Shown here piece after piece: positions 34,278 to 37,821 of a stretch of DNA of 64,000 nt (positions are counted from its first letter, which is position 1; the number at the start of each line of letters is the position of its first letter). Under the pieces are notes generated by a model that had not been told where the DNA came from, did not search any database, and saw only the letters and a list, made by a program, of their open reading frames with translations. Origin of the DNA: Kaistia dalseonensis (lineage in GTDB: Bacteria; Pseudomonadota; Alphaproteobacteria; Rhizobiales; Kaistiaceae); contig NZ_JAUSVO010000004.1 of assembly GCF_030814715.1 (NCBI RefSeq), positions 310,001 through 374,000 on the forward strand, given 5' to 3'. Made by a program: the position numbers and the translations under genes.

Positions 34278-35175
34278 CCCTGTTCCGCCGTCCGCACCCG
34301 GCGCCATCCGGCTGGCCGCGTCCCGCGCCTCGCACATTGTGGGCAAAGCGGGTAGCGGACGCCGCGCCCGCGCGCAACCCGTCGCATTGTCCCGCCCGGA
34401 CACGCCTTTGCGAGCGGCGCTGCTCGGCACGGGCGGTGGCGCGGTGTGAGGATGATCCGGAGGCGATGGGCGCCGGCTCTGTTCCTGGTGCCGGGTCCGT
34501 TCTTCGCGCTGGATGTGGGCAGCATGAGCAGGTCGGCAAGGCCGTGCGTCGCTTGTCGCGCGGGTGCGGTCCCGCATTCCCGCGGCGGAACGCCCGGGTT
34601 GTGGCTGGCGTCCCAGAACGCCCGGTTTCCGGGCCGTGCGCCCGGCGATGGCCGGGGGGAGGCGGATGCGCGAGAAGCACCGCTTGGGGATAGTTCCGTA
34701 TATGGCGCTCGTCGCGCATCCGCCGCGGCGGTTTCTGTCCTCCGATCGGCCCTGGCGGGAGGGAGACGGCTCGACGCGCGCTGCGCGAAGGCAACTCTGG
34801 CGCCCGGGCCGGCAGCGATCTTTCGTTTCGCTGCAGATATCCCCGGACTGATCCCTGTCCCTGGTGCGCGGCACGCTTTGCGCCGCTCACGACGGATCAT
34901 AGTGTCCGCTGGCATGATCGCAGGCCTCGCGGAGACGAAGGACCGGTTTCCCCCGCCTGCACGCGCCGCTCCCTTTGGACGCATCAGGCAAGGACCGGAT
35001 CCAGGCCCGCCCCCGGCGCGTCACGGGATGAGGGGAGCATGCCGGAAAGGGGAGGGACATGTCAAGGAAATTATTCCTATATCGAGGCCCATGCGCTGGC
35101 GGAGGCCAACTGGCTGGAGGTGGCCAATCGAAAGACGCCTCAGCCCTCTCCCGTACCGTCCTCCCCCTCCAGCGC
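34278..35175. other. ~900-bp region without a recognisable gene
   Basis: Several frames are open on both strands, but their translations are Arg/Pro/Ala-rich shadows of the G+C content with no family resemblance and no good ribosome sites. It contains a strong inverted repeat near 34661-34724 (listed separately), an AT-rich spot at 35060-35080, and at the right end the first dispersed palindromic repeat. It may host an RNA or gene remnants. Confidence 0.5.
34661..34724. ncRNA. Candidate structured RNA or cis-element (13-bp stem)
   Basis: GGCGGATGCGCGA (34661-34673) and TCGCGCATCCGCC (34712-34724) are perfectly complementary. A further AGC/GCT pairing is possible inside, leaving a loop that contains TTGGGGATAGTTCCG. 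There is no T-tract after it, and flanking sequence on both sides can form more GC-rich stems. The fold and lack of a gene suggest an RNA, but no known family is recognised and the strand is unknown. Confidence 0.3.
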
Positions 35176-35288
35176 CGTCATCCCCGCGAAAGCGGGGACC
35201 CATTCAGCCGGAGCATTGGGCGTGACGGGCAAGGATCGCTCAGGCTGCATGGGTCCCGGGTCTGCGCTTCGCTCCGCCCGGGATGACG
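35176..35288. repeat. Dispersed palindromic repeat (CGTCATCCC type), copy 1
   Basis: Begins CGTCATCCCCGCGAAAGCGG and ends in CGCCCGGGATGACG. The ends form two GC hairpins facing each other. Related copies are at 54013, 56316 and 59345, all intergenic. Confidence 0.75.
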
Positions 35289-35327
35289 GCTCAGATGCTG
35301 GATCACAAGCGTCACCCCAAGCTCGGT

Positions 35328-35521
35328 CCAAACCCTCCCCCTGAGGGAGGGTCAAAACCGCAAAGCGGTTTTGGGGAGGGGGCGCGTTGATCGGGCCGTC
35401 CTCTGTTCTTTCCGACATCCGCCGACACCAACCGCCAAGCACGCTTCGGCAAGGGCCGAAGCTACCCCCGCCCCGAAAACGCGATAGCCGCGTTTTCGAC
35501 CCGCCCTCCAGGGGCGGGTTA
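35328..35521. repeat. Five-hairpin ~195-bp repeat, copy A
   Basis: Consecutive palindromes: ACCCTCCC/GGGAGGGT, AAAACCGC/GCGGTTTT, GCTTCGGC/GCCGAAGC, CGAAAACGCG/CGCGTTTTCG and ACCCGCCC/GGGCGGGT. Copies B (35650) and C (36309) lie in the same orientation, with more than 85% identity by eye outside hairpin 4. Confidence 0.85.
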
Positions 35522-35649
35522 AGCGGAGCCATGCTCCTCTGCCCTTTGCTTCACCGCAGGACGACCGGGAGCAAGACGTAGATGCCCGCAATGAATGAGG
35601 GCATGACGACCTGTGAGTTCGGAGCGCTGCAGACCGCCATGGGCTCGAT

Positions 35650-35847
35650 CCAAACCCTCCCTCAGGGGGAGGGTCAAAACCGCAAAGCGGTTTTGGGGAG
35701 GGGGCACGCTCATCGGGCCGGACACCATCCTTTCCGACATCTGCCGACACCAACCGCCAAGCACGCTTCGGCGAGGGCCGAAGCTACCCCCGCCCCGAAA
35801 GTGCTGCGCACTTTCGACCCGCCCTCCAGGGGCGGGTTTGACGGCGC
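35650..35847. repeat. Five-hairpin ~195-bp repeat, copy B
   Basis: Same order of palindromes as copy A, but hairpin 4 is CGAAAGTGC/GCACTTTCG. It lies about 100 bp before the DUF559 gene. Confidence 0.85.
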
Positions 35848-35944
35848 CTCATCCTACAAGAATCGACCGCTGGCTCGTGATCGCGCTTTACGACAACTTG
35901 TGCCTGTCGAATGATCGGCGTCAGAGACAGGTATTGGGGTCATC

Positions 35945-36325
35945 ATGCCGCGACGCGAGGTCGAGCCGCGCTTGCGTGGTTTTGCGAAATCGATGCGCAA
36001 GGCCATGACGGAGGCGGAACTCCACCTCTGGATGCATCTGCGCCGTCAGAGACTGCGTGGCTTCAAGTTTCGCCGGCAGGTGCCGATCGGCCCTTTCATC
36101 GTCGATTTCTTCTGTGCGGAACTGCGATTGATCGTCGAGATCGATGGTGGCCAGCATTTCGACGACGAAGCCGTGGCCGCCGACGCGCGCCGCACGGCCT
36201 GGCTGCAGGCGCAAGGCTATCAGGTGCTTCGCTTCACCAATCGCGATGTCGTGCAGAACATGGACGGCGTCTGGGCCGTCCTAGCGGAGTTGGCCCGCCA
36301 GCGCCGGCCCAAACCCTCCCCCTGA
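35945..36325 (+). CDS. DUF559 nuclease-fold protein
   Basis: 126 residues of the DUF559 family, related to Vsr-type PD-(D/E)XK endonucleases. RKAMTEAELHLWMHLRRQRL is followed by GFKFRRQVPIGPFIVDFFC (Asp), ELRLIVEIDGGQH (acidic site IEIDG-like) and GYQVLRFTNRDVVQNMDGVW. The function of stand-alone DUF559 proteins is not established; DNA nicking or repair is inferred. The last codons (KPSP and stop) lie inside hairpin 1 of repeat copy C, and copies A and B lie upstream, so gene and repeats form one block. No methylase or other restriction gene is nearby. Confidence 0.87.
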   Translation: MPRREVEPRLRGFAKSMRKAMTEAELHLWMHLRRQRLRGFKFRRQVPIGPFIVDFFCAELRLIVEIDGGQHFDDEAVAADARRTAWLQAQGYQVLRFTNRDVVQNMDGVWAVLAELARQRRPKPSP

Positions 36326-36506
36326 GGGAGGGTCAAAACCGCGAGGCGGTTTTGGGGAGGGGGCGCGTTGATCGGGCCGTCCCCTGTCCTATCCGACATC
36401 CGCCGACACCAACCGCCAAGCACGCTTCGGCAAGGGCCGAAGCTACCCCCGCCCCGAAAGTGCTCTGCACTTTCGACCCGCCCTCCGGGGGCGGGTTTGA
36501 CGGCGC
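36309..36506. repeat. Five-hairpin ~195-bp repeat, copy C (contains the DUF559 stop)
   Basis: Third copy in the same orientation. Its loop in hairpin 2 is GAG rather than AAA, and hairpin 4 is CGAAAGTGC/GCACTTTCG with loop TCT. The TGA inside the first hairpin ends the DUF559 frame. Confidence 0.85.

Positions 36507-36564: not shown

Positions 36565-37821
<1,257 letters not shown>

Follow-up and report, generated by a model that had tools for sequence, protein, structure and literature searches.

DUF559 genes (PF04480) and the repeats that neighbour them very probably form a real cognate partnership, which spans Alphaproteobacteria, Escherichia coli, Xanthomonads, Bacteroidota and other groups. 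Adjacency of gene and repeat, a match between repeat class and DUF559 clade, inverted pairing and covariation of the repeat units, and joint presence or absence at one locus were all observed. No RAYT gene was found in the genus Kaistia, and E. coli chromosomes with the DUF559 gene ycjD carried more copies of the BoxC repeat. For a repeat family whose origin is unexplained, DUF559 may supply the enzyme, missing so far, by which copies are spread or maintained.

Repeat elements and DUF559 gene in the window

The window, a 64,000-nt stretch of Kaistia dalseonensis DNA, carries three direct copies of a ~190-bp element, in the same orientation, around one DUF559 gene (Table 1). Three same-orientation copies with five hairpins each had been proposed in the preliminary description, and this layout was confirmed by sequence identity and by the single-strand folds of elements 1 and 3. 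In ungapped comparison the outer copies were 73% and 89% identical to the middle copy, and in gapped comparison 88% and 89%. Elements 1 and 3, on which folding was run, both formed five hairpins as single-stranded DNA (z = -7.2 and -5.8, respectively), with 0/200 shuffles equally stable in either case. The five hairpins are accounted for by two inverted ~55-bp units that flank one linker hairpin. Each unit consists of a hairpin with a pyrimidine 5' arm and a purine 3' arm, a second hairpin and a G-rich third tract.

Table 1. Features of the DUF559 locus in the window (window coordinates).
Feature	Position	Strand	Basis
Element 1, class A, inverted unit pair with linker	35328..35520	+	Sequence comparison, single-strand fold
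Element 1 left unit, pyrimidine/purine-arm hairpin (hairpin 1)	35332..35352	+	Fold, covariation
Element 1 left unit, second hairpin	35353..35373	+	Fold, covariation
Element 1 left unit, third tract GGGAGGGGG, covarying with hairpin 1 stem	35374..35382	+	Sequence, covariation
Element 1 linker hairpin GCTTCGGC..GCCGAAGC, GTAG beside it on - strand	35443..35462	+	Sequence, fold
Element 1 right unit, third tract (CCCCCGCCCC on +)	35465..35474	-	Sequence, fold
Element 1 right unit, second hairpin	35474..35498	-	Sequence, fold
Element 1 right unit, pyrimidine/purine-arm hairpin	35499..35519	-	Sequence, fold
Element 2, class A	35650..35838	+	Sequence comparison
DUF559 (PF04480) gene, 126 aa, stop codon inside element 3	35945..36325	+	ORF, profile search, predicted fold of aligned family
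Element 3, class A	36309..36497	+	Sequence comparison, fold; right edge is one end of 944-bp similarity to C3 DUF559 locus
ispG (gcpE), conserved neighbour of DUF559 gene	36565..37821	-	Sequence search, comparison of sister species

Covariation was followed in the 41 distinct class-A units of the loci fetched, in which counts overstate the number of independent events because class-A copies are related by descent: the variable pair of hairpin 1 was complementary in 41/41 (G-C in 21, T-A in 20), 366 of the 369 pairs of hairpin 2 formed, several positions having changed on both sides, and in 40/41 the third tract's variable base followed the stem base of hairpin 1. Because this class-A third base follows the stem even without the standard purine triad, alternative Watson-Crick pairing is as possible as a triplex. 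Inverted pairing was counted for two classes; pairs less than 250 bp apart comprised 38 of the 46 class-A units in the window's genome (G000) and 81 of the 100 class-C units in genome G001.

Directly before the class-A linker hairpin, read on the minus strand (window 35443-35466; elements L005-L025), 12 of 17 elements have GTAG and the other 5 TTAG or TCAG. GTAG is the tag of RAYT-type REPs, yet a Y1 transposase was not found in the Kaistia genomes (n = 14). The sequence immediately upstream of element 1, at about 35170-35300 of the window, contains a palindromic repeat of CGTC type (CCGTCATCCCCGCGAAAGCGGGGACC ... GGGATGACGG), and a similar repeat adjoins a second DUF559 locus of the same genome, on contig C3 (L003).

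The DUF559 ORF was the only gene found between the three copies, as the preliminary description had stated. It matched PF04480 with an E-value of 1.1e-38 and 131.8 bits, against a curated cut-off of 20.6, and its stop codon falls within the first hairpin of element 3. The predicted structure of the protein (mean pLDDT 84.9) matched the DUF559 structure 3hrl with E 8.6e-8. The next-best fold match was I-Bth0305I (Foldseek E 4e-5; profile E 8e-4), and similarity to Vsr was weak (1vsr, E 1e-2 with the structure model; 1cw0, profile E 0.3). By the curated cut-off and the known fold, the window's gene is a member of the DUF559 family. Residues R18, E25, FRRQ42-45, D54, D67 and H71 were invariant in 21 proteins; by analogy, we take E25, D54, E65/D67 and H71 to be candidate catalytic residues.

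Association of genes and repeats within Kaistia

A profile search with PF04480 over 14 Kaistia genomes, including that of the window (G000:C4:310001-374000), yielded 21 stand-alone DUF559 genes. Four weak matches inside frames of 1233-1896 aa were not counted as stand-alone; these frames, from four genomes (L043, L044, L053, L055), apparently encode large multidomain proteins. Units matching the pattern of one of several classes were present within 350 bp of all 21 stand-alone genes. Five genomes have a class-A DUF559 gene; a hand count of pattern matches placed 19 of their 94 class-A units at most 700 bp from such a gene, and in the window's genome this hand count gave 10 of 46 where about 0.03 were expected. 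The enrichment of copies near DUF559, which the preliminary description had put forward as a test, was strong, and the association extended to other classes and phyla.

Unit numbers per genome are listed in Table 2. Reversed-pattern controls gave 0 matches, save for one class-D match in G011. Unit totals over all classes were 35-240 in the nine genomes that have a stand-alone DUF559 gene, and 9, 98, 0, 83 and 4 in the five that lack one (G005, G008, G009, G011 and G012). DUF559-less Kaistia genomes are thus often nearly empty of units, with G011 and the metagenome-assembled genome (MAG) G008 as clear exceptions. The preliminary description had named abundance of copies in genomes without DUF559 as evidence against a link; such abundance was encountered in these two genomes and was absent from the other three. 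Some repeat classes also occurred without a matching DUF559 gene, namely class C in G001 (100 units), class A in G007 (17 units) and classes B (87 units) and A (12 units) in G010. A profile search for the Y1/RAYT transposase (PF01797) found no match in the 14 Kaistia genomes, and the same search matched in 5 of 14 control genomes.

Table 2. Repeat units in 14 Kaistia genomes (pattern matches, forward plus reverse).
Genome	A	B	C	D	Remark
G000	46	4	0	46	
G001	0	5	100	4	Only DUF559 gene is D/E-type
G002	16	33	4	16	
G003	15	85	30	0	
G004	13	106	103	0	
G005	0	1	1	7	Without stand-alone DUF559
G006	4	4	26	1	
G007	17	10	30	23	Only C- and D-type DUF559 genes
G008	1	64	33	0	Fragmented, 92%-complete MAG; without stand-alone DUF559
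G009	0	0	0	0	Without stand-alone DUF559
G010	12	87	115	0	Only DUF559 gene is C-type
G011	0	44	16	23	Without stand-alone DUF559
G012	0	4	0	0	Without stand-alone DUF559
G013	0	81	159	0	

Beside ispG, DUF559 and class-A units were present together in four genomes (G000, G003, G004 and G006) and both absent in nine. Among the latter, G013, G008 and G001 had a short ispG gap with neither gene nor units, and in G002, G005, G007, G009, G011 and G012 the flanks of ispG were different ones, which also lacked both (the readable flank was 985 bp long in G011 and 492 bp in G012); in G002 one class-D unit was located about 1.4 kb from the ispG locus. In G010, the ispG locus carried a lone class-A unit and no DUF559 gene. 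Extra short C-terminal fragments of ispG (48-84 residues matched) were seen beside full ispG in three Kaistia genomes (L150 in G007, L151 in G005, and G012:C20).

The window's genome contains a second class-A DUF559 gene with flanking elements (C3:185815-186117), whose product is 98% identical to the window's protein. The two loci share 944 bp at 94.5% similarity. One end of this shared stretch is the outer edge of a repeat, and the other is blurred by further repeats.

Correspondence of repeat class and DUF559 clade

Repeat-class labels on a DUF559 tree required 19 changes, against a mean of 49.4 for shuffled labels (0/200 shuffles as low), in a tree of 94 rows that included near-copies and 14 rows without a repeat label and that rested on a short alignment with many open forks. 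For the 21 Kaistia rows alone, 4 label changes were sufficient for 4 labels. The tree left out L056, which duplicates L047, and seven loci whose matched stretch contained a stop (L057, L068, L075, L084, L089, L102 and L116). Since paralogues of one genome sit with different classes, a shared genome alone does not explain the match between class and clade.

A survey of 150 genomes of the order (89 genera) detected class-M units in four genomes (G036, 13; G082, 71; G117, 184; G147, 78) and M-type DUF559, at E 1e-38 or better, in four (G082, G117, G147 and G157). Three genomes, all of one genus, shared units and gene; G036, with 13 M units, had no M-type DUF559 at E 1e-38. M-like units were identified by eye near 5/5 M-type DUF559 loci fetched. 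Class F units (AAATCCCCCC nnn CCCCCCTTT loop AAAGGGGGG) adjoin a well-supported DUF559 clade (SH-aLRT 99; L087, L100, L118, L126) from MAGs of beta- and gammaproteobacteria, in which L100 is near-identical to L126. Matched classes ranged from 4 to 184 copies per genome.

Association beyond the genus

Beyond Kaistia, the best 80 of 570 confirmed DUF559 loci, chosen solely by similarity to the Kaistia protein, were analysed; they span Rhizobiales, Sphingomonads, Xanthomonads, Legionella, Betaproteobacteria, Bacteroidota and others. A pyrimidine-arm hairpin was present at most 300 bp from DUF559 in 75 of these best 80 loci, and on both sides in 37. Control ORFs of 100-200 aa from the same loci had such a hairpin in 14/184 cases, with both sides in 1 (Fisher p 8.7e-45 for 75/80 versus 14/184), and control intergenic gaps in 38/434. 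The density of pyrimidine-arm hairpins was 5.9 per kb within 100 bp of DUF559 and 0.08-0.13 per kb beyond 300 bp; for perfect-stem hairpins of at least 8 pairs, the corresponding values were 6.9 and 0.5-0.7 per kb. These controls led to rejection of a chance association. That palindromes merely accumulate in gene-poor, permissive gaps in which DUF559 is a dispensable gene is strongly disfavoured by the same controls and by the match between class and clade, even if gene and repeats could both be dispensable and accessory, and of all explanations considered it is the least probable.

Five of the 80 loci lacked a pyrimidine-arm hairpin (L057, L062, L077, L084 and L115), with imperfect units at L057 and L062, and in at least two of the 75 the hairpin was not of unit form (L063, A-rich; L133, poly-C). 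At the Legionella loci L063 and L084, inspection by eye revealed BoxC-like flanking arms whose short loop is replaced by a long internal stretch.

A tract mirroring the pyrimidine arm was found in 63 of the 73 loci with room for it, where shuffles gave an expectation of 6.9. A direct repeat of the arm occurred in 39/73 loci; 27 loci had the mirror only and 3 the direct repeat only. In a short-gap mirror test (score at least 0.85), which is weaker than the per-locus test with wider gaps, 54/148 units near DUF559 and 17/89 far pyrimidine hairpins scored (p = 0.05). The general unit is a pyrimidine-arm hairpin with an arm-mirroring third tract, spaced by a few nucleotides or a small hairpin.

BoxC/PIT/TM_ECO and ycjD in Escherichia coli

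The BoxC/PIT motifs of E. coli, known since the 1990s, have no explained origin. By sequence comparison, class B is this motif, with the same arms, third tract and inverted pairs. BoxC/PIT/TM_ECO has been described as an intrastrand-triplex motif of E. coli and relatives with 23 copies in strain K-12; its sites are unstable between strains, no mobility gene is reported near it and its origin is left open (Holder et al., 2015; PMC4666352). In pattern matches against the consensus and Table 1 of that publication, the motif form CCCTCNCCC-loop-GGGNGAGGG-N3-GGGNGAGGG was matched by class B units only; in the other classes the unit architecture is kept with other letters. The reading frames of class-B DUF559 genes run on into the adjacent repeat, which encodes C-terminal tails, for example PHPNPLPEGEG (L001, L035, L036, L038, L039, L045).

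The DUF559 gene of K-12 is ycjD (1351407-1351760). It is separated by 167 bp from TM_ECO no. 9 (1351204-1351239), and a second, degenerate unit extends over the 3' end of the gene. The main text of PMC4666352 mentions neither ycjD nor endonuclease nor DUF559. A search of the PMC literature, which lacks most subscription papers, found none that connects DUF559 or ycjD to the repeats described here; this does not prove absence.

The ycjD gene was present in 3,365 of the 5,426 E. coli genomes that are complete. BoxC-like places (matches up to E 0.1) were counted in a spread sample of 59 chromosomes, from which H190, a 231-kb record, had been left out. Chromosomes with ycjD had 13-29 places (median 21, n = 37), including the place at ycjD itself, and chromosomes without ycjD had 1-15 (median 4, n = 22), a difference with p 8e-10 in statistics that ignore relatedness. 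Because all 22 ycjD-minus rows matching fabI break at the same base, the absence of ycjD, and hence the BoxC contrast, probably reflects one historical event. In strain CUVET19-1396 (L160), which lacks ycjD, the place that this gene takes after fabI in K-12 is occupied by TetR and RND efflux genes.

Three BoxC sites were aligned between E. coli strains. At hrpB-mrcB, strain 07_3636 retained a single-hairpin remnant in place of the pair and strain Eco-15 had a repeat-free allele; at alx-sstT, a single-hairpin remnant replaced the pair in strain 21368; and fepB-entC showed a larger indel of ~186 bp. No clean insertion with both edges or a target duplication was seen at these three sites. The losses of pairs can be explained as plain deletion between arms.

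Possible mechanism and alternative explanations

We consider, with a probability of roughly 0.6, that DUF559 drives the spread or maintenance of the repeats, a reading under which present data do not separate restoration, spread and protective repair. Of the suggestion in the preliminary description that a DUF559 protein maintains or moves the repeat family, the association itself held up, and moving or maintaining is its best reading. The steps of binding, cutting and copying, like the direction of cause, are our inference, as follows. A nuclease with a Vsr/I-Bth0305I fold (EDxHD) would recognise its folded cognate unit, probably while the unit is single-stranded at replication, and would nick or cut it. 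Repair might then copy the pair to new sites or restore lost copies, and gene and repeats would thereby persist together, in a manner resembling RAYT-REPIN with an unrelated enzyme. The chances are about even for the more specific proposal of a transposase-free second class of repeat system, in which DUF559 nucleases recognise triplex- or branch-forming pairs and copy them, and in which YcjD is the long-missing BoxC/PIT enzyme. Several observations run counter to spread or maintenance by DUF559: repeats occur without a matching DUF559 in G011, G008, G001, G010, G007 and G036, the E. coli contrast resembles a single event, no insertion with both edges was captured, a Caulobacter DUF559 protein is tied to methylation and repair, five of the 80 loci lack a pyrimidine-arm hairpin, and the mirror tract is also found at far pyrimidine-arm hairpins (17/89).

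DUF559 might instead be a Vsr-like repair or anti-instability enzyme that processes hazardous repeat structures and is kept near the repeats while not spreading them. Vsr is a distant fold relative, and the Caulobacter protein VsrA, which contains a DUF559 domain, is tied by genetics to DNA damage and repair linked to cytosine methylation (PMC12907096). Tolerance of the repeats would likewise result in more BoxC in E. coli with ycjD, and the instability of BoxC sites between strains, in the literature and in our alignments, fits such a role. Repair alone, however, does not explain why units of its own class lie beside each DUF559 clade, even among the paralogues of one genome, and this explanation appears unlikely.

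Less probable again is that the repeats are landing sites and that DUF559 genes are small mobile or hitch-hiking genes, inserting at or carried by repeats that another enzyme spreads. In favour of such insertion, the 944 bp common to both class-A loci of the window's genome stop at a repeat's outer edge, a relative of the protein, I-Bth0305I, is a homing endonuclease, and the linkers of most class-A elements contain a GTAG-tagged hairpin as in RAYT-type REPs. In addition, ISPpu9 is reported to sit inserted in REP sequences, and some insertion sequences target REP. A Y1/RAYT gene that might spread the repeats was, however, absent from all 14 Kaistia genomes, the repeat class matches the DUF559 clade, and the gene stays by ispG in four species.

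It is very improbable that DUF559 solely regulates itself by binding the units at its own gene as operators or terminators, with dispersed copies being decayed or unrelated. Units do reach over the 3' ends of both ycjD and the window's DUF559 gene, but the same units occupy many sites per genome, mostly as inverted pairs in the two classes counted. A function of the units as transcription terminators was rejected because they are present on both sides of the gene and are dispersed.

If DUF559 does spread or maintain the repeats, a widespread domain of unknown function would acquire a role, REP-like repeats in genomes without RAYT would have a second enzyme class, and differences in BoxC copy number between E. 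coli lineages would in part be explained. The partner gene in K-12 makes the origin of BoxC testable by simple gene removal.

Comparison with known systems

Vsr acts on T:G mismatches at Dcm sites. Vsr shares a related fold, and VsrA the DUF559 domain, with the proteins studied here, whose genes are marked by flanking repeats. I-Bth0305I, the best fold match after 3hrl, is an intron-homing EDxHD enzyme for which we know of no repeat family. Gene and units are jointly present or absent at ispG, and an allele-level homing event was not seen among the 14 Kaistia genomes. CGTC-tagged REPs have been reported as palindromic repeats without a dedicated transposase (PMC3733652) and differ from DUF559 units in tag and sequence. 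To BoxC/PIT/TM_ECO, the present results add a partner gene and the further classes A, C, D, M, F and G.

The closest parallel is provided by REP/REPIN sequences and RAYT, which share with the DUF559 system palindromic units, inverted pairs, many dispersed copies and a dedicated gene beside its own repeat class. Like a RAYT gene in a REPtron, DUF559 is flanked by repeats of its own class that are dispersed and often form inverted pairs. In contrast, the RAYT enzyme is an HUH Y1 transposase (PF01797) and the gene described here encodes a Vsr-fold protein of PF04480; assignment of DUF559 as a RAYT was rejected on these differences in family and fold. GTAG, located at the hairpin foot in RAYT/REP systems, stands here beside the class-A linker hairpin, outside the unit patterns, and DUF559 units differ from REP units in carrying a mirror or third tract.
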